A stretch of DNA of 64,000 nt, from positions 1 to 64,000 of the forward strand of contig JACGCK010000210.1 in assembly GCA_014925825.1 (NCBI GenBank). Reading direction: 5' to 3'. Below are positions 2,078 to 63,478 of the stretch, piece after piece; the stretch's first letter is position 1; the number at the start of each line of letters is the position of its first letter. The translations under genes were made by a program, and so were the position numbers. Source of the DNA: Pholiota molesta. Its lineage: Eukaryota; Basidiomycota; Agaricomycetes; Agaricales; Strophariaceae. The notes under the pieces were generated by a model. It saw nothing but the letters and a program-made list of their open reading frames with translations. It did not search any database and was not told the origin of the DNA.

Positions 2078-2850
2078 TTAATCAATTTCGCGGTGGGTAC
2101 TACGGCAAGCCTGAGCAATAGCAATTGCGCTTTTCCATTCCAGAGAGCTCCACTTCTCTGCGTTTTCAGAGGCATCGATATAATCTCTGACGGCCAACGC
2201 CATTTGCTGCGCACATCGCTCTGCAGAGACGCCTCCTACACCCGTCGCCAATCCCGTCATTAGGACTTTACGAATTTTCGTGCCCTCCCCGGAGGCATCC
2301 ACTGCCCGGTTATGGTGCTCCAGCGCAAGCAACAATGACCATACGCAATTGTACACGACTTCTCGATTCCATGTGACCGACTCGGGAATGCGCATCGTGG
2401 GGCACAGGGCGATGAAAGCACAGCCGTGCGAGTTGCCCTCGCACACGGAGCCTTTGAGTGGGATGAGGGTGCATGTAGCAGGGGGTGCGTAGCCCTTCCA
2501 CTGCTTATAGAGAGCGGCTTGGGCAACCCGGGTTGGCGCGTCTACATCGTCGGGGGAAAGCGCTTCAGCTAGGAAATAGTCAAATCTAATCAACGATGAT
2601 CGACTCGATGATTAGTTCAGCTTGTCTTTGAGAGATATGTTACTCACCCGCCATCCAGACGGCCATACGAGTTGGCTGGTGATACGATGCAGTCAAATTG
2701 GTTGTGCGGCGGGGTCAGGTCGGACAGGAAAGATTGGATCATCGAGAACTTGTCTCGATATGCTTCGGGGATGTGCTGGGCGATGGCACTCTGCCATTCC
2801 TCTATGAGCTTTGGTGAAAGATCCAAGAGGATGAACTGAAGACCGTCCAT
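2078..2850 (-). CDS. Macro-domain protein
   Basis: Two exons (2850-2648 and 2585-2078) separated by a 62-nt GTGAGT...TTAG intron encode about 236 residues. The first exon carries the macro-domain nucleotide-loop signature (DCIVSPANSYGRLDGG), and the frame runs across the splice into FDYFLAEAL. The second exon contains the late macro motif VLMTGLATGVGGVS, which in the family forms the loop contacting the ADP-ribose phosphates. Macro domains bind or hydrolyse ADP-ribose derivatives; which of these applies here cannot be told. The protein is a single-domain type common in fungi, probably cytosolic. It is divergent to the HCNGP-like gene, with a shared ~350-bp promoter region. The start is the first ATG in frame, and the coding length divides evenly by three after splicing. 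Confidence 0.8.
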
Positions 2851-3201
2851 GGATGAAGTTCAGGACCTGGGAAGCTCAGGATCTAGTGATAGTACTTCTG
2901 GGACACAAAGTCTATTGAAAAAGAAGTGCTCAATATTTATTCTAGACGATGAATAAAAGTAATCAATCACTAGCACTACACTTACGATGTATGAGTACTT
3001 GAGTACTTGAGTAGAGGTCGAGCATACGAATTGCCATATGTCCGTCGGTGAAAGAGGGCGACTGCATCAAGTGATGCCATCAGTTGTGGGCGATGAGATA
3101 AAAATAATAATGATTATAAAATGTCTAACATAGCTAAGCCTATTTTGGTTGTCGGAGTTTGCACACCTCTTGCCTCCTCCCTTCATTCAAGTTCAGTCAA
3201 A
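2851..3201. promoter_or_regulatory. Bidirectional intergenic promoter region
   Basis: A 350-bp spacer separates two divergently transcribed start codons. It is AT-rich and contains a short direct repeat, GAGTACTT repeated around 2993-3014. No clear TATA box was identified, so promoter assignment rests on position only. Confidence 0.4.
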
Positions 3202-4460
3202 ATGAATGGTAAATCCGTTTCAGTTTCTCGTAGAATCTATCTAAAGCACTCGTAGGACTCGTCGCATACGATAATGACTCTCCTAGTGACAACGAAGCCG
3301 GACCATCGACGTCTAACGGCGGCCAAAACTACACGAATGTGAGATAATTCGTCGCCATCCTCCTGCGATTGTTTCCATCTTTCTGGCTTTTATTCCGCGT
3401 CGGATAGGACAAATCAACGAAGCCAAGCGCTAAAGCCTCTTCTGAAGGTATGGTTTGGGTGCATTTCTGTTCCTCGAATGCTCATGTTTCTCGCAAGGAC
3501 GGCGCATACCTAAATCGCAAGTCATCATCAAAAGGCCGACCATCAGCCATAAAACCCATAGTCTACGTGCACATGTCTCAGACGACCTGACAGAACACGC
3601 GCGCCCAGAAGTTGCCAGCTCTTCCCGAGATGGTTCTGTGGACGTGTCTCGTCCCAGTCCATCGGAAGAACCTCAGGATGAGCTTCATCGGATCCGAAGT
3701 CTGCTACAACCTCCACCTATCCCAGATGTCCCAGATTGGGGTATTCCTGCAGAATCCTCGGAACCCTGTGACCCTGTGCTGCGGGTACGTCGTGTGTTCA
3801 TCCTGACATCGCTGCCACCTCATAGCTCTGCTTGCCGCAGACGAAACTGGCGCAATTCTCTGCGCTCAAAAACGACCCTGTGAACCCCAAACACTTCAAC
3901 GACTCTCTCATGTCTAATCGGTCCTTTCGAAACCCACATCTATATACCAAGCTTGTCGAGTTCGTGGATGTGGATGAACGCGCGACGAATTTTCCCAAGG
4001 ATATTTGGGATCCGAACGATGTCAAGCCTGATTGGTTTGCGCATCAAATTGGTATGTTGGATCCTCTTTCTTTCGACGATATCACATTCATGCCATCTTC
4101 ATCTGTCCCTTTCGCTTGCTTCTGTCCTTTCTCGGACCAAACCCTCTTGCACTGCTTTATTTTATTCTCGTCTCTGCGCTATTTCTCTTGGCCCACACTC
4201 TTCTTTCTGCACGGGCGCACCTCTTCCACTCTCCGGGCTGCAACTCGTGGGTCCGACAATTCAAAGCGGACGCGCAGAAAGAGCAATCCGAGAGACAATC
4301 TGCTTCCCAGACTCCCGGGAAACGCAGTCATATCAACTTCTCGTCTGCGAAAGACAAAGAGAGTGTGTCGAAAAGGGGCCGATTCCAACCTTACGGCTCG
4401 TCTGCGTTGGGAAAGGATCTGGGCTCGGGCGCTCGACCGAAAACGCGATGGGGGCCATGA
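3202..4460 (+). CDS. HCNGP-like (SAP30-binding protein family) protein
   Basis: Six exons (3202-3208, 3256-3338, 3408-3447, 3522-3784, 3841-4051, 4267-4460) total 798 nt and give 265 residues. The protein opens [11 protein letters not shown], as this family usually does. It continues with VIIKRP, the core [18 protein letters not shown], then [20 protein letters not shown] and [20 protein letters not shown], and ends in a basic tail TRWGP. This order is diagnostic of the HCNGP family, nuclear proteins linked in other eukaryotes to transcriptional regulation and splicing. The first exon has only seven coding bases. The last intron (4052-4266, 215 nt) is long for this window, but the frame is continuous across it (HQI to ADAQKEQ). 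Confidence 0.88.
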
Positions 4461-4924
4461 TGTCCTGTTCTTTCTATCTTATCTACCTTTCTCTTCAATG
4501 TAACAGGGATTTTGTGATAATGACGCGCAGCTTCTGACATCAGCGAAATAAGGCGGATGCAAGCAAGACATTTAATTAATTGTTGAGCTCCGTTGTAAAA
4601 GAAGACGCCCGAGGGGTTGTGAAAAGTTTATTTTCACAACCCCTCGGGCGTCTTCTTTTAAATTGCGGATTATTCAATTTTCCTGGTCTTCTTCGAAATC
4701 GCTCGAGGTAAACGTACCTTGCATTCAGAATAGCAGATGGGCTGGCGGGATAACAAGCGATCATATCCGCACTCATGTGGGCGGCTCGTTCCTTGGACCA
4801 AACTGACAATAACTCCACCTGCTATAAACCCCTCTCTCCTCTCCGTCCTTTCTTAACCTCATACCACCACCATCTCGCCCAATTTCGCCTTACACCAGCT
4901 TCAATCCCAACACCTAACAATAAC
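4461..4924. other. Intergenic region with hairpin and pyrimidine-rich promoter
   Basis: This is the spacer between the HCNGP-like gene and the next + strand gene. It holds the perfect hairpin at 4597-4659. A CT-rich stretch at about 4826-4860 just ahead of the 4925 start is typical of fungal transcription start regions. Confidence 0.5.
4597..4659. repeat. Perfect 29-bp inverted repeat with 5-nt loop
   Basis: Bases 4597-4625 are the exact reverse complement of 4631-4659, leaving the loop GTTTA. There is no mismatch in 29 pairs. The position is between two genes of the same strand, about 140 bp after the HCNGP stop codon and 265 bp before the next start. It could be a fold-back remnant, a 3'UTR structure of the upstream gene or a small-RNA precursor; nothing seen separates these. 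Confidence 0.9.
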
Positions 4925-7174
4925 ATGTCGGCGCTCATCCCGACGAGCTCTATCCTCAAACTCGCCTTGGCCGGGGGTCTCCTCGCTTTCCGCCCAGGCG
5001 ACAGAGGCCCTATGGGCAAGGAGCAGAAGGCGGGCGTCGCCCTCCTCGCCGGTGCTGCTGGGTTCGCCGTCGCGCCTACGATTTACCAGCTCGCCCACGG
5101 CCTCCGTGGGCCTGCGACGGTGCCCGCCAAGGTGGATCTTGTCCACCTCAGGCCCGCCCGCCCGAAGGCTACCGGCACCCGCCGCCCTGCGGGTGAGCCC
5201 ACGAAGACGAAGACCTGGGGCCCGGAGGCGGGTGCGGGCGGGAAGCCCAGGAACGCGGTGTTTGCGATCGCGGTGTGCGTGTTGGTTGCTGGCGGCGGAG
5301 CTGCCATGGTCCTCGGTCAGAGATCCGCTGCCTCGGCTGCGGGCGAGGATGGCGAGGAGCTCGACGATGTGGAAGATGTCCCCGCTGGTGGCGAGGACGC
5401 GGCGAGCGGTTCGGGTTAGTCGAGAGCTTGTTTGATGTGTCCTGAACTTACTCATCTTCCAACGCAGGTGGCGACTCTTCTGCTCCTGGCGATGGCGAGG
5501 ACGCGGCGAGCGGTTCGGGTTAGTCGAGAGCATTTTTGATATGTCTGAAACTTGCTCATCTTCCAACGCAGGCGGCGACTCTTCTGCTCCTGGCGATGCT
5601 CCAGATGATCCCTCTGGCGTCGGCGATGAGTCGGGTTAGTTTTCCTTGAATCATCGTTGGTACTTCGCTTAACTCGCCTTCAGATACAGTATCCAACGAC
5701 GCACATGCTTGCAATGGCGATGTGGGAGGTTCGCCTCCCCCTCCCCTCCTCCTTCGGAGACAGCCTCTGGCTCAGATGACGGCAACAAGGGCTGCGGTGT
5801 CTATGGCCTTGATTGGAAGGCTCTCTTCATCGCCCTGGCCGTAGTCGCCGCGTTCAAGAAGTACAAGGCGCTGCGTGCAATGAACGTGGACAAAGAAGAT
5901 CTCGCCCGAAACAGTATCCGCCCGCCCAAGTTACTTCCAAAGTACAAGAATATTCATCGGCGTATCTTCGTGATGGTGCCAACGCCGGTCTCCTCGCCAC
6001 CGCCTCCTGCGCTGCCTTCGCGTCTACGAAGCATTCAGCGATTTCGTCTCAGTTTGTGGATCTCGCTACGGTCGTGGACGACAAGGAGAAGCAACTCGCG
6101 CTTATCTACGACATCGCGATGCCCAGAATCTCTGCTTTCCCAGGACAGGTTGGGATGTGCGCCGGCGAATGTGTGCCCAGCGTCAAGGCCGCCGAGATGC
6201 CTTGGGAATGGGATGACGACCGGGAAAACCAGCCTCCTGTTGCGCTTCGCTTTGCCCTTTCTCCCGAAGAAGCACTGGATCAAATCATCGCGGCGGGCTC
6301 TGGGTCGCCTGTGGAGGAAGAGCCTGCAAAGTCTGCTTGGGGTATCGTCACTGGGACCAGATGGGGCTTTCGTCAAGCGCACTTTGGTCGTCGTTTTGGT
6401 TGCGGTTGTCGCCTATCTTTTCCTTACTATCGACCGCTTGAACGCCGCTATCGAAGACATCGATGAAGTAAATCGCCAAGTAAGTTTTCTCTTGCCTTTC
6501 TGAATCGATGTTTATCTGACCTTCTCCTATGATAGCAGGCCGTGAAAATGGAACAAGCCCCTTGCGACATCGAGGAAGAAGAAATCTATTACGACGCACC
6601 TTCTGAATCCACGGACGCGGACACTGAAATTGACACACCTGCGGACATTGCCTCCAACGCATCCATCACCGGAGAAGAAGTCGCGGACGAAGAGCTCACA
6701 GTCGAGGAGCCTGAGCAGACCATCCTCGCCGACATCGTTGCTGAAGTCAACGTCCGGAAGCGTTCCGTGTCGTCTCCTGCTATTTTCACCGGCCCCATCG
6801 AGGAAGTTGCACTCATTGAATTTATTTCGGTGCGTTCTTTTGGCTTTTTTTGAAACGTTGATTGCTGATTCAAACTCCTGTTGCAGCCCTCTAAGACTTT
6901 CCCTGACCACATGCCGGATATTGCGCCTGCTCCTCCTGCGGTTGAAGACCCTGCTTCAGCCTCAATTGCTCCTCCTGACATTGAGATCGCTCCTCCTACC
7001 CCAACCGTTCAGGAGCCCAAGGAGGTATTTCAGGAGACCCAAGAGGTCTTTGCCATCCCCGTTGTAGGCGAAGAACGGCCTCGTCGTCGCGTCCGCGGCG
7101 GACGTCGCAGCCATACTCGTACTGGGCACGGACGTGGAAATGGCCAAGCGGGTGGATCCTCTACGTTTATCTAA
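4925..7174 (+). CDS. Unrecognised multi-span membrane protein with tandemly duplicated exon
   Basis: I recognise no family. The ATG at 4925 follows a CT-rich leader. Exon 1 (4925-5414) encodes a hydrophobic N-terminus, a second hydrophobic segment (AVFAIAVCVLVAGGGAAMVLG) and an acidic tail. Exons 5468-5518 and 5572-5634 repeat the Gly/Asp/Ser/Ala-rich end of exon 1. A long exon from 5684 to ~6480 adds hydrophobic segments ALFIALAVVAAF and TLVVVLVAVVAYLFLTI. Exons from 6540 to 6830 and from 6887 to 7174 add an acidic, Pro-rich region and a basic Arg/Gly C-terminus. Within 5684-6480 the coding signal changes frame three times, near 5740, 5920 and 6375, each at a C or G run. Either the gene is decaying or the assembly has single-base errors. 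Codon use and splice sites elsewhere look healthy. Confidence 0.6.
5415..5571 (+). repeat. 104-bp tandem exon+intron duplication inside the membrane-protein gene
   Basis: Introns 5415-5467 and 5519-5571 are both 53 nt, begin GTTAGTCGAGAG and are nearly identical. The 51-nt exon between them (5468-5518) repeats the end of exon 1. The unit therefore has a 104-bp period, and because the exon is phase-symmetrical each extra copy adds 17 residues without a frameshift. The next exon (5572-5634) starts with the same GGDSSAPGD coding sequence and then diverges. Confidence 0.85.
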
Positions 7175-7310
7175 AGGACGAACAGCGACTCTTCTTCATC
7201 TTGTGTTTCTATCGGCTCTCAAGACGCGACGAATCTCGATTTTTGACTACTGTGGCCGGATGTTTGCTTGCGAATTTTGCCGCCCTCGAATGACCTCAAT
7301 TACGGGTACA
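7175..7310. other. Probable 3'UTR of the membrane-protein gene
   Basis: This sequence follows the stop codon and leads into the four-hairpin structure. No separate gene is visible. Confidence 0.4.
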
Positions 7311-7520
7311 GGAGTGTCGATTGACTGACGAGTTTATCGATGCTCCTCCACTTCCGGTGGGGATATTATCTGACGAGATAATGTCCCTACCACACCATGC
7401 TCCCATTGCGAGGCTAGGGCGCTGACGAGCGTCCTTGCCTTGTTGTGGGAGCATGGTGTTCGGTTGTGCTATTGAAGGCGGCAGCGCTGACGAGTGCACG
7501 CCGCTTTCATTAGCACACCG
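7311..7520 (+). promoter_or_regulatory. Four consecutive stem-loops with identical C(TGACGA)G hexaloop
   Basis: Four hairpins follow each other almost without spacer. Hairpin 1 is 7311-7346 (15 paired positions: 11 Watson-Crick, 3 G-U, 1 U-U). Hairpin 2 is 7356-7391 (15 pairs: 13 Watson-Crick, 2 G-U). Hairpin 3 is 7392-7459 (31 positions: 25 Watson-Crick, 4 G-U, 2 U-U). Hairpin 4 is 7461-7520 (about 25 pairs with one bulge and a small internal loop). Every one ends in the hexaloop TGACGA closed by a C-G pair (loops at 7326-7331, 7371-7376, 7423-7428 and 7488-7493). The G-U pairs work only if the + strand is transcribed, so an RNA element in the 3'UTR of the 4925-7174 gene is the natural reading. 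I know no described RNA family with this pattern. Confidence 0.8.
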
Positions 7521-8354
7521 AGGAAGAGGTCTTACCCTCAACGGTCATTCGTATATGGCGCACTCCCACCTCCCGCATCCGCACATCTCTTGGTCGTATA
7601 TTCCACAAATCGGTTCAAACGCCTCCGAGCCACGCTTGTCTACTCCTGTCCCTTGCTGTCTGCCTTAAATCAATTGTCTGGAAGAATTTGCTCTTTTCTT
7701 GCGAAACGCAAAGTTACACTCGCCCTCATCTCTGGCTTTTTATTCTGAAATCATATATCCATATTTTCTAGATCACCATTTCTTTTCTCTCAATATTTTC
7801 ATCATCGTTTCGTCTGCCTTTTTTTCCTGCCAGTGCCTCGTTTGATCTCCATTGTCCTGTCCTCGTCTTTATCATCTACTGTTTACCCGCCGTTTCTGTC
7901 AATGTATTACCGCCTCATGTAGCTTCTGGTCTGCGGTCGATGACTTCCATCATCAAAATTTTGATTCACTATCTATTCTTCATGGCCATTTTGTATCTAC
8001 CGCATCATGTAGTGTCTTCGGTCAGCGGTGTTTTATATCCTGAATTTATACATCATTTCTCTTATGGTGTCGGAGCTGAGCGCTGAGCGCTCGCTGAATT
8101 TTACTACTTATGAATGTCAGAATATTTAAGGTTAAATATTGGGCAAGTCGGAATAAAAATAATAATAAACTCGCTTGAGCTTGAGCACGAGTTCTTGCAC
8201 TGGAGTACACGTGAGAGTACGCAAAAAAATTTCCTTAGGATAATCGATTGGACTTCAGCTTCAAGCTTCAACGTTCAACTCGAAGCCCATTCTACTTAGG
8301 GCGTCCCCCACTTACTACCCCCCACCTCTGCCCAGCTTCATAGAGACCTGAAAT
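7521..8354. other. Intergenic, start of tandem duplication unit 1
   Basis: No gene is visible. From about 7712 the sequence is duplicated at 11951 onward and forms the upstream region of F-box gene A1. It is pyrimidine-rich, with several TTTTCT runs. Confidence 0.6.
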
Positions 8355-9716
8355 ATGGCCCATCTTTCTCATACACTGTCCCTTGATGAGTATACACTCA
8401 TCATCAGTGAAATCGACACATGGGACCAAAAATCCCGATCTAGCGTTTTAAAGGTTTTGGCTCTAACATGTCGTTTCTTCGTTCCACTCTGTCAAAAACG
8501 ATTATTTTCCCGCATCAAATATTCACCGTATAAAGTGGACACATTCCTGGACATCCTGTGCACTTCTCCGTATCTTGCAGATTATATCGGGCATCTTGAC
8601 TTTCGCAGTTATACCGACACGGGCGATAACACAATCCGATTCCTCGACAAACTCAACAATTTACTATCCTTGTCCATTAAGACGTTTGGAGATGATTGGA
8701 AAGCCCTCGATCCCCAGTTATCCGATGCCCTTCTACGTCTCATATCATCTCCCAATCTTCGCTCTCTCCAACTTGACGGTCTTCGAAAATTTCCCGTACA
8801 GAGCCTTCTGAAATTGGGAAATTCCGGATACCTTGAAACCCTAGATATCCGTGAACTAGGAATAGATCTAGGCGATATTCTTACTGTGTCGACAACCCTC
8901 GATGCATCAAATTCATCCTCGACCATTATACAACTATCGAAACTCAAAGTGTTTACGGGCAGCGCCTCCGCTGTGAATGTTCTCATGGGTGGATCAAGCT
9001 CCCCTTGTCGTAATCCTCCGGTCTTCGATTTTAGTCGGATGCGAGAACTTTGTACAGAATGGTGCCATGGTGATGATGTGGTTGTAGGCAAGCTACTGAT
9101 AGGCTGCGCGCCATTTCTTGAAGATCTGAAATGTACATGTGAGTATCTATCGACTGTAATTTTGGTTTGAAGAAAACTTATTTTTGGGCGCATAGTCCGA
9201 TATGTGGGGTCAACTGTAGAAAACTTCAGCGGCCTGGCAGAAGCCATTTTGAAAGGACCATCTCAAACACTCCGAAGGCTGAGGTTCGATACCGGCGAGG
9301 TTCCAGTCATAACTTACAGGGACCCTTTCTATGGAATTGTCGCTGAACTGGGACAGCTTGCAGGCCAGACGAAAGGTCTCGAAAGCATCGAGATGGAGTT
9401 CTTTATCCGCCTCGACTTGAAGGACGATCCCTACGGTCCCGACAGGCTGTTCCAGGCTATCTTGCACAAATGCACGCCCCTCGATGATCTTTTGGCTGAT
9501 CGAATTGCATTCCCTAAGCTGCGCTGTCTTTCGGTTCGCTTCGCCACACATCTGTACGATGGTACAAACGTTGTTGTCTATGATCCCGTCTTATGGCCGC
9601 AGCTCAGTGATGCCGCTCGTACGATCAAGCGGGACGTTTTTAAAAATGTGAAAGCTATTTCAACAATTAACTTTTCTTTCGATTTGGTCGGTTCATACAA
9701 TTTGCATGATCATTGA
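8355..9716 (+). CDS. F-box-like/LRR-like protein A1
   Basis: Two exons (8355-9138 and 9196-9716), split by a 57-nt intron, give 434 residues. The N-terminus (SLDEYTLIISEID, then VLALTCRFFVPLCQKRLFSRI) has the layout of the degenerate F-box of large Agaricomycete F-box families: a hydrophobic helix, then LxLxCRxFxPLCQxxLFSRI. It is followed by leucine-rich segments such as LRSLQLDGLRKFPVQSLLKL. Such proteins usually recruit targets to SCF ubiquitin ligases; the target is unknown. The protein is almost identical to A2 (12563-13924), with only about ten residue differences seen, and is a distant paralog of B1/B2. Confidence 0.75.
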
Positions 9717-10215
9717 TACTGTAATAATTTAGTCATTCACTGTTCTTGCCTTACTATCTTCCGAAGTTTTGAATGTCGGATTCGGAATATCGAATACTTT
9801 GGTGTGATTTCCTGTCCAAGGACTCCAAGCGCACATGTTGGTACAACAGAAACACTAGATTACTGACAACAGCGATTCCACAATTTGCTTCCAGCCATTA
9901 CAGATCTAAAACATAGACCATCTTTTTCGTCCAATTGTTTTTGATGAAATACACTCATCGTCCCCTTGCAGACTTGGATATCGGTTCGTATAGCATCGAA
10001 CCCCAAGAATTAAGTTGTTCAAGCGCTTTTGTGCCATAGGACGAGACGATTCCCGTCCAGGTATTATAAACTCACACTGCTGCTTTGCTGCTGCCGGCCG
10101 ATTGTCGTTGGGGGCTTGTTGGAGGCTATATGCACGTGAGGATACAACTTGATTGATTCCAGTGCTGGGCGTCTATACATAACTTGCTACCGACCACATC
10201 ATGCAAATCTGAAAC
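9717..10215. other. Spacer between A1 and B1 with fossil F-box 5' end
   Basis: The spacer has no intact gene. It contains a relic of another F-box gene start (9911-9961) and the promoter of B1. Confidence 0.6.
9911..9961 (+). pseudogene. Relic of the first codons of an F-box paralog (unit 1)
   Basis: The segment ending GATGAAATACACTCATCGTC aligns with the start region of the F-box genes, which read ATGGCCCAT...GATGAATATACACTCATC. The initiator is ATA here but ATG in the second unit (14118). The reading frame is lost immediately downstream. Confidence 0.6.
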
Positions 10216-11612
10216 ATGGCCCATATTTCTTGCCCATTCTCCCTCGATGAATATACACTCATCGTCAATGAAACCGACGCATTACCCTGGCGATCCCGCT
10301 GCCACGCTTTGAAGGCTTTGTGCTTAGCTCATAGTTCCTTCGTCCCACTCTGCCAAAAACGCTTGTATTCACGCATCGTATATTCGTCGAAGAAGGTGGA
10401 CGCATTCCTAGACATCCTGTGCGATTCTCCTCATCTTGCTGGCTATGTCCGACATCTGGAATACTATGAATTCGTCGACGATTCACGCCTCCCAGTCCCA
10501 ATCCCGCAGGGCAATGGCAATGCAGTCAAGTTTCTCGACGCGCTCCTCAATTTGCGTTCTTTGGCGATGATGGATGCGGAGTCGCCTCCAGGATACGATT
10601 GGAAAGCTCTGGACCCGCAGTTATCCCGTGCGCTTCTGCGTATCGTACTCTCTCCCGAACTGCGGTCTCTTCAACTGCATGGGCTGCGAAACTTCCCTAT
10701 ACGGGGCCTAGTGGGGCTGAGGTGTTCCGCGAACCTCACCACGCTTTCTGTGGGCGCCTTGGGGGTAGATCTGGAAACTCTGGATGTCTACTTCGATGGT
10801 TCCGGTTCCGGGTGTACCGGTGCACGGCTGGTGAAGTTCACTGCTGAGAAGGGCAGTGCCTCCGCGGTGCCAGTGCTCATGGGTGGAATCGCCGCTTCTT
10901 CTGGCAATCGCCCGGTCTTCGACCTGAACGGGCTGTCCATCGTTTCTACTGAATGGGGTGGAGGCCGTCTTTCGGACATGGGTCGTGTCTTGGTGGAGTC
11001 CGTGTCTCATGTTCAAGACTTATCCTGCGTATGTGAGTAGCCTTCGGTCTCCGTTTGAATATCAAATCATTTCTATCAAATCCTTACATGATATAATATA
11101 CAGTGTCGAGAGATTCATTTGCAACTTTCTACGGTTTGGCGGTGTCCATTCTGAAAGGACCATTCAAGACTATCCGCAAGCTCAGGTTCCGTACCCGAGC
11201 CATCGCAGAAAATGAGGGAGATCCTTTCTACGGCAGCATCACGGAACTGCGACAGCTTGCGGGTCGGATGCCATCTCTCGACACTCTCGATATGTGCTTC
11301 CACATCTACACTAGGGATGTTGTTGACGCTCCGTGGAACCTCCCCAAGGCAATTGAGGACGCGCTCTTCCCGGCCTTCGATTATCTGCTTGCTGATGGGA
11401 GTGCCTTCCCGAAGCTGCGCTCGGTTTCCATCTGCTTCATGCTCTTGATTCTAGATGATTATTCTGTTGTTACTGGTGTTGTGGATCGGTTCAGGGCTTT
11501 CAATCGGTCGATAAAGGACAGAGTTTTGGAGCAGTTGGATGCCGCGTTGACGTTTGACTTTATTTTTGACATGTGTGTGCAGCCATCATTCTTAGATGCA
11601 AACGATGTATAA
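10216..11612 (+). CDS. F-box-like/LRR-like protein B1
   Basis: Exons 10216-11032 and 11104-11612 give 441 residues, with the intron in the same position and phase as in A1. The protein has the same F-box-like start (FSLDEYTLIVNETD, then LCLAHSSFVPLCQKRLYSRI) and the same downstream leucine-rich layout. It is a clear paralog of A1 but much more diverged from it than from B2. Residues at the extreme C-terminus differ from B2 through several clustered changes. Confidence 0.75.
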
Positions 11613-12562
11613 AGTATGTATGCATTATTGCCTAGTAATTGGATGATCGCAGTGTCTCGTCGCTCTCACTGAACGGGATCCAACAATTTGAGATTGAGAT
11701 TTCGTGAAGCAATAGGGGCTCATTGCTGGAAGGGGACCAAGAAGGTGTCTTGATCAAAACTCCATTTAGCTGGGAACACTTAAGCGCCCAGGAGAAAGAT
11801 CTTATCTGGGAAACGAAGGAGAATTCGGGGTCGACGAGTTGAACATGGAATCAGTGACCCTAGTGACCATACCGATACCCTCCGCACACATGTAAAAAAT
11901 GCGCAGCCATGCTACTTGTCAGATAGGTTCAGAAGAATGGAATGCCAAAGAGTTACACTCGCCCTCATCTCTGGCTTTCTATTTTAAAATCATATATCCA
12001 TATTTTCTAGATCAACATTTCTTTTCTCTCGATATTGTCATCATCTTTTCGTCTGCCTTTTCTCCTGCCAGTGCCTCGTTTGATCTCCATTTTCCTGTCC
12101 TCGTCCTTATCATCCAGAATTTACCCGCCGTCTCTGTCAATGTATTACCGCCTCATGTAGCTTTTGGTCTGCGGTCGATGACTTCCATCATCAAAATTTG
12201 ATTCACTATCTATTTATTCATGGCCATTTTGTATCTACCGCATCATGTAGTGTCTTTGGTCAGCGGTGTTTTATATCTTGAATTTATACATCATTTCTCT
12301 TATGGTGTTGGAGCTGAGCGCTGAGCGCTGAATGTCACTATCGGAATATTTAACGTTGAATATTGGGAAAGTCGGAATAAAAATAATAATAAATATGGAG
12401 GCCAGCCGGCTGCAGCACTGCTGGCAGCCAACTCGCTTGAGCTTGAGCACGGGTTCTTGCACTTGAGTACATCGTGAGAGTACCAACTCGAAGCCCGTTC
12501 TACTTAGGGCGTCCCCCACTTACTACCCCCCACCTCTGCCCAGCTTCATAGAGACCTTAAAG
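11613..12562. other. Spacer between B1 and A2 (junction of duplication units)
   Basis: No gene is seen. It holds the 3' flank of unit 1 and, from about 11951, the upstream region of A2. The latter includes a short insertion near 12395-12430 (rich in GCCAGC/GCTGGC) that is absent before A1. Confidence 0.6.
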
Positions 12563-13924
12563 ATGGCCCATCTTTCTCATACACTGTCCCTTGATGAGTA
12601 TACACTCATCATCAGTGAAATCGACACATGGGACCAAAAATCCCGATCTAGCGTTTTAAAGGTTTTGGCTCTAACATGTCGTTTCTTCGTTCCACTCTGT
12701 CAAAAACGATTATTTTCCCGCATCAAATATTCACCGTATAAAGTGGACACATTCCTGGACATCCTGTGCACTTCTCCGTATCTTGCAGATTATATCGGAC
12801 ATCTTGACTATCGCAGTTATACCGACACGGGCGATAACACAATCCGATTCCTCGATAAACTCAACAATTTACTATCCTTGTCCATTAAGACGTTTGGAGA
12901 TGATTGGAAAGCCCTCGATCCCCAGTTATCCAATGCCCTTCTACGTCTCATATCATCTCCCAATCTTCGCTCTCTCCAACTTGACGGTCTCCGAAAATTT
13001 CCCGTACAGAGCCTTCTGAAGTTGGGAAATTCCGCATACCTTGAAACCCTAGATATCCGTGAACTAGGAATAGATCTAGGCGATATTCTTACTGTGTCGA
13101 CAACCCTCGATGCATCAAATTCATCCTCGACCATTATACAACTATCGAAACTCAAAGTGTTTACGGGCAGCGCCTCCGCTGTGAACGTTCTCATGGGTGG
13201 AACGAGCTCCCCTTGTCGTAATCCTGCAGTCTTCGATTTTAGTCGGATGCGAGAGCTTTGTACAGAATGGTGCCATGGTGATGATGTGGTAGTAGGCAAG
13301 CTACTGATAGACTGTGCGCCATTTCTTGAAGATCTGAAATGTACATGTGAGTACCTATTGACTGTAATTTTGGTTTGAAGAAATCTTATTTTTGGGCGCA
13401 TAGTCCGATATGTGGGGTCAACTGTAGAAAACTTCAGCGGCCTGGCAGAAGCCATTTTGAAAGGACCATCTCAAACACTCCGAAGGCTGAGGTTCGATAC
13501 CGGCGAGGTTCCAGTCATAACTTACAGGGACCCTTTCTATGGAATTGTCGCTGAACTGGGACAGCTTGCAGGCCAGACGAAAGCTCTCGAAAGCATCGAG
13601 ATGGAGTTCTTCATCCGCCTCGACTTGAAGGACGATCCCTACGGTCCCGACAGGCTGTTCCAGGCTATCTTGCACAAATGCACGCCCCTCGATGATCTTT
13701 TGGCTGATCGAATTGCATTCCCTAAGCTGCGCTGTCTTTCGATTCGCTTCGCCACACATCTGTACGATGGTACAAACGTTGTTGTCTATGATCCCGTCTT
13801 ATGGCCGCAGCTCAGTGATGCCGCTCGTACGATCAAGCGGGACGTTTTCATAAATGTGAAAGCTATTTCAACAATTAACTTTTCTTTCAATTTGGTCGGT
13901 TCATACAATTTGCATGATCATTGA
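12563..13924 (+). CDS. F-box-like/LRR-like protein A2
   Basis: Exons 12563-13346 and 13404-13924 sit exactly 4208 bp from their A1 counterparts, and the product has the same 434-residue length. Substitutions versus A1 include GHLDY for GHLDF, LSNALL for LSDALL and TKALES for TKGLES. The frame is intact, so both copies could be active. The role is inferred as for A1. Confidence 0.75.
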
Positions 13925-14575
13925 TACTGTAATAATTTAGTCATTCACTGTTCTTGCCTTACTATCTTCCGATGTTTTGAATGTCGGATTCGAAATATCG
14001 AATACTTTGATGTGATTTCCTGTCCAAGGACTCCAAGCGCACATGTTGGTACAATAGAAATAGATTACTGACAACAGCGATTCCACAATTTGCTTCCAGC
14101 CATTACAGATCTCAAACATGGACCATCTTTTTCGTCCAATTGTTTTTGATGAAATACACTCATCGTCCCCTTTGAACCTGTCGTAAGAGTAATCCACTTA
14201 TACTCTGTGCACGACCATTAGAAGATCACATCAATGGATTGTCGCTGTCTAACTATCATATCATAAAAGTATATTTACTATGCCAGGTGGTTGTGCGCGA
14301 GTCGCAGACTGTAAGTATTTGAAAATCCGATAACTATAGGAGGGAAAGCCAACGAGTGCAGACTTTGATCATGATATCGGTTCGTATACTACATCGAACC
14401 CCAAGAATTAAGATAAGATGTTTAAGCGCTTTCCAAGTATTGTAAACTCACACTGCTGCAGGCCGATTTCGTTGAGGGCTTGTTGGAGGTTATATGCACG
14501 TGAGGATACAACTTGATTGATTCCAGTGCTGGGCGTCTATCGCTTGCTACCGACCACATCATGCAAATCTGAAAC
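13925..14575. other. Spacer between A2 and B2
   Basis: It carries the second relic of an F-box start (14118-14165) and about 0.2 kb (roughly 14170-14380) that is missing from the equivalent place in unit 1. No intact gene is visible. Confidence 0.6.
14118..14165 (+). pseudogene. Relic of the first codons of an F-box paralog (unit 2)
   Basis: The ATG at 14118 and the following ~48 bases resemble the 5' coding end of the B-type F-box genes. The frame then meets an early TGA, so it is a fragment. Confidence 0.6.
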
Positions 14576-15984
14576 ATGGCCCATATTTCTTGCCCATTTT
14601 CCCTCGATGAATATACACTCATCGTCAATGAAACCGACGCATTACCATGGCGATCCCGCTGCCACGCTTTGAAGGCTTTGTGCTTAGCTCATAGTTTCTT
14701 CGTCCCACTCTGCCAAAAACGCTTGTATTCGCGCATCGTATATTCGTCGAGGAAGGTGGACGCATTCCTAGACATCCTGTGCGATTCTCCTCATCTTGCT
14801 GGCTATGTCCGACATCTGGAATACTATGAATTCGTCGACGATTCACGCCTCCCAGTCCCAATCCCGCAGGGCAATGGCAATGCAGTCAAGTTTCTCGACG
14901 CGCTCCTCAATTTGCGTTCGTTGGCGATGGTGGATGCGGAGTCGCCTCCAGGATACGATTGGAAAGCTCTGGACCCGCAGATATCCCGTGCGCTTCTGCG
15001 TATCGTGCTGTCTCCCGAACTGCGGTCTCTTCAACTGCATGGACTGCGGAACTTTCCTGTACGGGGACTGGCGGGGCTGAGGTGTTCCGCGAACCTCACC
15101 AAGCTTTCTGTTGGTGCCTTGGGGGTAGATCTGGAAACTCTGGATGTCCACTTCGATGGTTCCGATTCCGGCTGTACCCGTGCACGGCTGGTGAATCTCA
15201 CTGCTGAGGAGGGCAGTGCCTCCGCGGTGCGAGTGCTCATGGGTGGAACCGGCGCTTCTTCTGGCCATCGCCCGGTCTTCGACTTGAACGGGCTGTCCAT
15301 CGTTTCTACTGAATGGGGTGGGGGCCGTCTTTCGGACATGGGTCGTGTCTTGGTGGAGTCCGTGTCTCATGTTCAAGACTTGTCCTGCGTATGTGAGTAG
15401 CTTTTCAGTCTCCGTTTGAACATCAAATTTCTATCAAATCATTTCTATCGAATTCTTACATGATATAATATACAGTGTCGAGAGATTCGTTTGCCACTTT
15501 CTATGGTTTGGCGGCGTCCATTCTGAAAGGACCATTCAAGACCATCCGCAAGCTCAGGTTCCGTACCCGAGCCATCGCAGAAAATGAGGAAGATCCTTTC
15601 TACGGCAGCATCACGGAACTGCGACAGCTTGCAGGCCAGATGCCATCTCTCGACACTCTCGATATGTGCTTCCATATCTACACTAGGGATGTTGTTGACG
15701 CTCCGTGGAACCTCCCACATGCCATTGAGGATGCGCTCTTCCCGGCCTTCGATTATCTGCTTGCTGATGGGAGTGCCTTCCCGAAGCTGCGCTCGGTTTC
15801 CATTTGCTTCATGCTCTTGATTCTAGGTGATCCTCCTGTGGATGAGGAGGTTGAGGATCGGTTCAGGGCTTTCAATCAGTCGATCAAGGACAGAGCTCTC
15901 GAGCGTTTGGATGCTGTGTCGATGTTCAACTTTTCTTTTGACATGTGTATGCAACCGTCAATATTGAGTGCAGACGATGCATAA
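14576..15984 (+). CDS. F-box-like/LRR-like protein B2
   Basis: Exons 14576-15392 and 15476-15984 have exactly the lengths of B1 (817 and 509 nt) and encode 441 residues; the intron is a little longer than in B1. Most differences from B1 cluster around residues 195-235 and in the last 45 residues, for example VDEEVEDRF in B2 where B1 has VTGVVDRF. That clustering could reflect relaxed or diversifying selection in the variable C-terminal part. Confidence 0.75.
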
Positions 15985-16866
15985 AAGTACTTGTGTATTA
16001 TCACCCAGTAATTGCATGTGATCGCAGTATATCGTCGCTCTCACTGAGTGGGATCCACCATTTAAAGTTAAAGCGACAGACGTCTTGACAAATGCCATAG
16101 CTGATTCAGTGTAACCTTGATCGCTGATATGCCTGTGAGGGGATTGCGGAAACGACCGACCCTAGTAGAAACCTATCTCGGAAGTGATGGACACTGGGCA
16201 GACCACCGAATTTTCCAGCGAAAAGCTGAGAAATAGGGGCTCATTGCTGGAAGGGGAACAAGAAGGTAGATCCTCTCGCGTAGTTAACGCATTCCCGGGC
16301 GTCTTGATCAAAACTCCATTTAGCTGGGAACACTTTAAGCGCCCAGGAGAAAGATCTTATCTGGGAAACGAAGGAGAATTCGGGATCGACGAGTTGAACA
16401 TGGGCTCAGTGAGGCTCAGTGGTTCTAGTGATCATACATACCCCCCGCACACATGTAAATGCGCAGCCATGCTGCTTGTCAGATAGGTTCAGAATGGAAT
16501 GCCAAAGGTAAGTATATATATTTTTACGGCTTACCTAGGCTCAGACAGCTATATTTACGTTGATCTGAGGTGGTCCTAAATAGAAATGAATTGCTGCGAG
16601 TTCTTGGCAAGTTCTTGGTCATATTCATGTTGCAGCGAGGCTGAGCGAGTACATCATGTTCTGACAGCTACTCATGACAATTTGATCTCACGCTGTCTGT
16701 TGGCTATGATCTACTCAGGTAACTCAGCGATGTGTTGGTGGTGGGGGCTGGTGGGGGGTGACTCTATAAATTCGAATACGGGAGACTAGACTCGGGAGGT
16801 TCGCTGTGTGGTTAAGTTATCCAGGAGTTATCCCAAAGTTTTGCCAAAAGTTATACGAAAGCCAAA
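15985..16866. other. Intergenic between B2 and the Gypsy element
   Basis: The first ~520 bp are the 3' flank of duplication unit 2. The remainder is unique spacer ending in the CCAAA target duplication at 16862-16866. No gene is seen. Before the Gypsy insertion this spacer led directly into the bHLH gene. Confidence 0.6.

Positions 16867-61901: not shown

Positions 61902-63478
<1,577 letters not shown>

Follow-up and report, generated by a model that had tools for sequence, protein, structure and literature searches.

A hairpin array with a constant UGACGA loop follows two diverged genes of Pholiota molesta: a candidate cis-acting mRNA element

We analysed a 64-kb stretch of DNA from Pholiota molesta (the window) and found four neighbouring hairpins, different in their stems and alike in a C-UGACGA-G loop, downstream of a membrane-protein-like gene. 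We interpret this cluster as a cis-acting 3'UTR element, a multivalent docking array that would be read through its loop by an RNA-binding protein, and we place the probability of this interpretation at about 0.6. The structure, the strand on which it forms, the constancy of the loop, its recurrence at a second locus and its position shortly after a stop codon are all read from the sequence. The interpretation supposes three further points: that the region belongs to the mature transcript, that a protein reads it, and that this reading affects the localisation, stability or translation of the message. The features discussed are listed in Table 1.

Table 1. Features of the hairpin cluster, the gene before it and the second hairpin locus. 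Coordinates are those of the window unless a contig is given.
Feature	Position	Strand	Details
Upstream gene BJ912DRAFT_934575 (hypothetical protein, 631 aa)	4926-7174	+	Several introns; from reading frames, own-genome match and public record
Coding end with basic tail AIPVVGEERPRRRVRGGRRSHTRTGHGRGNGQAGGSSTFI	7055-7174	+	Stop codon 7172-7174
5' flank of possible basal stem	7203-7308	+	Can pair with 7533-7635, long and interrupted; weak evidence
Hairpin 1	7310-7347	+	16 pairs, one U.U; CTGACGAG at 7325-7332
Closing stem CTTCC/GGAAG, 5' side	7351-7355	+	Partner 7522-7526; mean pairing probability 0.90; identical in the C168 copy
Hairpin 2	7356-7391	+	16 pairs; CTGACGAG at 7370-7377
Hairpin 3 (longest)	7392-7459	+	30 pairs, two U.U; CTGACGAG at 7422-7429
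Hairpin 4	7460-7521	+	26 pairs, one bulged U, one U.U, one 1x2 internal loop; CTGACGAG at 7487-7494
Closing stem CTTCC/GGAAG, 3' side	7522-7526	+	Encloses hairpins 2-4
3' flank of possible basal stem	7533-7635	+	Pairs with 7203-7308; weak evidence
Second locus	C48:26383-26504, copy C501	Sense strand of preceding gene	Found by loop spacing alone

A sequence-only reading of the window had proposed four neighbouring hairpins with unlike stems and one loop, and all four loops lie where it placed them, each capping a hairpin on the + strand. Its extents for hairpins 2 and 3 are also correct, while for hairpin 3 the count is 30 pairs with two U.U oppositions in place of 31 pairs, and hairpin 4 ends at 7521 and not at 7520. 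A fifth copy of CTGACGAG in the window, at 62083 on the - strand, is far from the cluster. Hairpins 2-4 abut without a free base and are enclosed by the CTTCC/GGAAG stem, so that they are predicted to be the arms of a four-way junction, with hairpin 1 just outside it. The energy model draws a U-A pair inside the hexaloop, which is included in the pair counts of Table 1; the loop of the cluster may be either a UGACGA hexaloop or a U-[GACG]-A tetraloop.

Folding had been suggested as a check, and its outcome favours the proposed structure. On the + strand, 7290-7540 folds at -160.3 kcal/mol (z -15.8), and on the - strand at -125.8 kcal/mol (z -10.4); on neither strand was the value equalled in 200 shuffles. 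The mean pairing probability per helix is 0.88-1.00 for hairpins 1-4 in a 451-nt context. Among 1278 segments of 150 nt taken from both strands of the 64 kb, the lowest folding z belongs to 7301-7450 on the + strand. The flanks outside the closing stem can also be paired with one another. As duplexes they beat shuffles at the hairpin loci (z -3.6, -3.0, -2.8 and -2.6), and as joined-flank folds they hardly do so (z -2.1, -1.5, -1.6 and -1.0); for the flanks in the window, 0 of 300 shuffles gave as good a duplex and 8 of 300 as good a joined fold. A long basal stem around the cluster is thus a possibility for which there is weak evidence, and it is not firm.

The same arrangement is found elsewhere in the genome. 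We searched the 65.6-Mb genome of P. molesta, in which the window lies on contig C125, for two copies of CTGACGAG 36-66 nt apart. There are 11 such places, compared with 1 for the reversed pattern. Two hairpin loci, each present in two copies, account for eight of them: the window locus on C125 and C168, and the second locus on C48 and C501. At the remaining three places (two on C81 and one on C179) the loops cap no stems, the best stem score among 14 sites being 2. The second locus contains three adjacent hairpins, unlike those of the window in their stems and again with UGACGA as the loop, two of them with CTGACGAG and one with TTGACGAG, and the heads of its two copies fold with z of -11.3 and -11.8. 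A pattern of three TGACGA copies with any closing pair and a spacing of 38-68 occurs at 41 places genome-wide (6 when reversed), and six of the 41 fall in the two hairpin loci. We examined 24 of the 35 others, 18 of which were also run through the covariance model described below, and found no long stem on UGACGA: the best score among 136 TGACGA sites was 3, compared with up to 22.5 in the hairpin loci. Several of the places outside the hairpin loci resemble acidic coding repeats or tandem repeats. A looser pair pattern, counted by position only, has 58 places genome-wide. DNA searches with each 3' region recover only its own two copies, besides a self-complementary match of hairpin 3, so the loop is common to both loci and the stems are not.

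The strand that pairs can be deduced from mismatched oppositions in the arms. The cluster fold includes 11 G-U pairs, in keeping with the minimum of nine counted earlier, and the earlier view that these pairings hold only in a + strand transcript is borne out by a bias of G.U over A.C. In a strand-symmetric alignment of the arms, the ratio of G.T to A.C oppositions is 11:1 in C125, 12:2 in C168, 13:1 in C48 and 11:2 in C501 (P under a 1:1 expectation 0.003, 0.006, 0.0009 and 0.011, respectively, copies of one locus not being independent). The C125 and C48 arms taken together have 24 G.U and 2 A.C. A cause at the DNA level would produce G.T and A.C equally, and the excess of G.T therefore indicates pairing in the + strand RNA, which at both loci has the same sense as the preceding gene. 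Strand bias is also one of the observations that make it most improbable that the hairpins are functionless, as mutational palindromes left by template switching or as products of chance. Such events may occur in this region, since the sequence nearby includes a perfect 30-bp palindrome (4596-4660). A DNA process would, however, be strand-symmetric. Seven hairpins, distributed over two loci, carry one and the same loop; furthermore, a fourfold 8-mer within 251 nt was seen in 0 of 5000 dinucleotide shuffles, the largest number being three.

We also surveyed single hairpins. The census comprised 143 CTGACGAG sites flanked on either side by two G/C letters and passing an end-letter filter, of which 100 were listed; 78 of these were kept by hand and 22 repeats or near-repeats were dropped, 10 of them being re-scored. 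Hairpin 3 of the window scored 9.5 among the 78, the next site 5.5 (8 of 13 positions pair), and the re-scored near-repeats 3.5 at most. We dropped the idea of UGACGA as a general hairpin of the genome on the basis of these 78 + 10 of 143 G/C-flanked sites, and single hairpins may exist at other sites. The arms, with 16 to 30 pairs and small loops, could in principle be substrates of an RNase III or Dicer-type enzyme whose cuts would destabilise the message, process it or yield small RNAs, and the loop would then be a fixed-distance mark, as it is for yeast Rnt1. We regard this as unlikely. Outside the hairpin loci, no long stems with UGACGA were seen at the genomic sites that we sampled, which is a poor fit to a general processing signal. 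The loop recognised by Rnt1 is of the AGNN type, to which UGACGA does not belong, and to our knowledge Dicer needs no constant loop.

A covariance model, which had been recommended as a further check, was built from hairpins 1-3. It recovers the held-out hairpins moderately, with E 0.048 for hairpin 4 and E 0.001 to 0.45 for those of the second locus, but ranks an unrelated hairpin (L010 740-775, - strand, E 0.026) above hairpin 4. The L010 hairpin is a single one with a C-UGAAGA-G loop. In the 153 viral IMG/VR stretches among the matches listed there is no TGACGA-capped stem scoring at least 8, and one of 7.0 is present in L092. When the prokaryotic stretches are included (153 + 118, 271 in all, among the matches listed), a stem of this score is found only in L308, the acidobacterial contig QHXD01000377.1. 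This contig has two neighbouring TGACGA-capped hairpins on the - strand with near-identical stems (TCGTCA at 4498 and 4456 in + strand coordinates), and the pair is a repeat of another kind.

Comparison of the copies shows how the hairpins vary. Over 2571-8169, a stretch that takes in the neighbouring HCNGP-like gene, C168 aligns with C125 at about 90%; the two are probably haplotypes, or else a duplicate. They differ by 8 substitutions in the 217 nt of the hairpins (3.7%), by 12 in the 135 nt before them (8.9%) and by 11 in the 194 nt after them (5.7%). Six pairs are changed: one change is compensatory (C-G to U-A at 7395/7456 in hairpin 3), three are one-sided and still pair, and two pairs are broken, both in the outer part of hairpin 4 in the C168 copy. 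Between C48 and C501 three pairs are changed, of which two are kept and one is broken in C501, so that 6 of the 9 changed pairs at both loci still pair. The loop is intact in 14 of 14 hairpins (both loci, all copies), which is weak evidence of constraint because there are few changes between copies. C48 and C501 say little about constraint, since divergence in their hairpins (1.9%) is no lower than in the coding region (1.3%) or downstream of the hairpins (1.5%). Orthologs lacking both the loop and compensatory stem changes had been named as evidence against the element. When the P. molesta copies, which are closely related and offer few changes from which to judge covariation, are compared with one another, the loops are kept and one compensatory change is present, and three pairs are broken. 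The broader proposal, a putative RNA element with a constant loop and variable stems after a membrane-protein-like gene, agrees with the second locus, the G.U bias, the intact loops and changes that are mostly compatible with pairing.

The hairpins lie 135 nt past the stop codon in the window and 104 nt past it at the second locus. The sequence-only reading had placed them correctly downstream of the gene and had put the spacing in the window at 137 nt. An element that folds as a compact unit could also be a non-coding RNA gene in its own right, unconnected with the upstream mRNA; we find this very unlikely in view of the sense-strand orientation and the short distance past the stop codon, which are common to both loci. 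In the exon-joined model (650 aa, compared with 631 aa in the public one), the protein of the window gene has hydrophobic segments, an acidic middle and an Arg-rich C-terminus. At the threshold used it has five hydrophobic peaks and the second-locus protein two, both from exon-joined models, which give each protein an acidic region and a basic end. The window gene appears to be fast-evolving and membrane-protein-like. Relatives of its product, among 8000 candidates scored per search, are restricted to fungal hypothetical proteins of P. conissans. Two of these, the orthologs BDN70DRAFT_719398 and BDN70DRAFT_95698, share about 37% identity with the window protein and retain the IPV.G.ER end, the basic stretch after it and GGRR. 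No Pfam family is present in the window protein up to E 0.1, the solved structures contain no match to its family, and a P. conissans protein used as query revealed no further paralog in the P. molesta genome. The second-locus protein has no relatives among the 8000 candidates sharing most words with it; as only such candidates were scored, low-complexity words may have crowded out its relatives. For the window family against the second gene, hhalign gave a probability of 83 (E 9e-6, one comparison); phmmer reached 6.8e-6, a value affected by strong bias in composition, and BLASTP 0.34. The part that matches is of biased composition, and a proline run that aids the match is present in the exon-joined model and in P. 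conissans but absent from the NCBI model P0001. The two hairpin genes are likely to be distant relatives, a relationship that is weakly supported.

Several other features were noted around the hairpin gene. The neighbouring HCNGP-like gene is marked by Pfam PF07818 in the ORF 3832-4503. The palindrome at 4596-4660, which has a 5-nt loop, is located between this gene and the hairpin gene; its segment ranks second-lowest in folding z, and a similar stretch is present in the C168 copy. Downstream of the hairpin gene, 8182-16829 is a tandem duplication with a unit of about 4.2-4.4 kb and the ORF pairs 8355/12563, 9204/13412, 10216/14576 and 11103/15475. The ORFs 8355, 9204, 10216 and 11103 contain no Pfam family up to E 0.1, and C168 has one unit of the duplication in the stretch examined. 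The sequence TCATGTAG is found downstream of both hairpin loci, at 7915 and 8005 in the window and at 5278 in L043, and is extended to TCATGTAGCTTC at 7915 and at L043 5278. Further copies at 12153 and 12243 are inside the duplicated stretch. This is possibly a polyadenylation-region motif.

We compared the cluster with known RNA elements. The earlier view that it belongs to no described family is consistent with a search of the whole 64-kb window on both strands against Rfam 15, which gave 0 matches at the gathering score. Open-access literature on UGACGA, CUGACGAG or stem-loops with the same loop, considered at listing level, contained nothing pointing to this element. Iron-responsive elements (IREs) are clustered in the transferrin receptor 3'UTR, and they resemble the present array in having one six-letter loop on hairpins, several per 3'UTR (a position that the present hairpins would share), and a protein that reads the loop. 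The array differs in its UGACGA loop and in longer arms that abut in a junction. An IRE requires a cross-loop pair with AGU at the apex, together with a C bulge five pairs below the loop (PMC8466369). An IRE was rejected because the loops are UGACGA in 14 of 14 cases, with neither the cross-loop pair nor the AGU apex, and because hairpins 1-4 have no bulged C five pairs below the loop. The packaging signals of satellite tobacco necrosis virus are also read through the loop, are indifferent to stem sequence, occur several times per RNA and involve a basic protein extension (PMC3593212). Constant loop, variable stems and multiple copies per RNA are shared with the present array; the viral loop is ACAA, however, and no virus or capsid gene was recognised here. 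A viral origin of the array finds no support in the protein relatives scored, the Pfam search or the IMG/VR stretches among the matches listed. The bicoid 3'UTR carries a structured localisation element, large and multi-armed, whose arms have no one common loop. The present cluster is likewise a large multi-arm structure past a coding part and differs in its single common loop. The hammerhead ribozyme has the core CUGANGA and was rejected since CUGACGA is in terminal loops here and the window has no Rfam match. A mimic of the anticodon loop was dropped because its register misfits the stems.

The loop itself can be compared with phage boxB. The P22 boxB loop GACAA is a GNRA-like pentaloop whose looped-out C contacts an Arg and a His of the N peptide, and the accompanying survey of GNRA-like loops counts hexaloops among its matches (PMC12550061). 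The GN(N)RA letters recur in the present loop: by letters only, GACGA can be written GA(C)GA, like P22 boxB, which makes the basic tails of the two gene products candidate readers. A basic-peptide reader would be analogous. The differences from phage boxB are an extra U, arrays in place of single hairpins, and a fungal gene. As a special case of protein docking, the Arg-rich tail might bind the loops of its own 3'UTR, for autoregulation or membrane anchoring. We consider this unlikely. It is in line with the basic tails at the ends of both hairpin genes, with the conservation of the tail motif in two P. conissans proteins of only about 37% identity, and with the GACGA within the loop. The case is weakened by the small number of loci, two, by tails that are unlike in sequence between them, and by the fact that basic tails are common. 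The extra 5' U before GACGA also misfits the pentaloop variants, none with an insertion there being detected in the survey (PMC12550061). A stronger form, which is unlikely and which we offer as a speculation by analogy, is a family of fast-evolving fungal membrane proteins whose messages carry a multi-armed UGACGA-hairpin head bound by the protein's own arginine-rich tail, so that each mRNA would be held at, or packed together with, the protein that it encodes. This would be a eukaryotic, cellular counterpart of the N peptide-boxB pair, arranged in arrays.

A constant six-letter loop on variable stems could also be read by RNA, through pairing with a trans-acting RNA that carries UCGUCA. We hold this to be quite unlikely. 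The loop is not self-complementary, which makes pairing between identical loops improbable, and kissing between them was dropped. Docking of an RNA-binding protein on the 3'UTR is the simplest account of the array. At both loci the loop stays constant on stems that vary and that pair in a single RNA strand; this implies that the loop is what is read and that the stem presents it, and several loop copies on one head suggest avidity. The stems would serve as rigid spacers whose own sequence hardly matters, and UGACGA would be the part that is read, displayed four times here and three times at the second locus. An RNA-binding protein would dock with high avidity on arms radiating from the junction and, once docked, would control where the message is located, how long it lasts or how much it is used.

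As far as we know, the cis-acting signals documented on mRNAs of this group of organisms are few. The recurrence of the array after a second, similarly built gene suggests that an undescribed signal is read on these messages. The hairpin, with loop mutants and stem swaps, provides a short and defined bait for pulling down its reader. If confirmed, the array would constitute an undescribed RNA recognition code in a mushroom, in which one loop is carried on many stems after two diverged genes.
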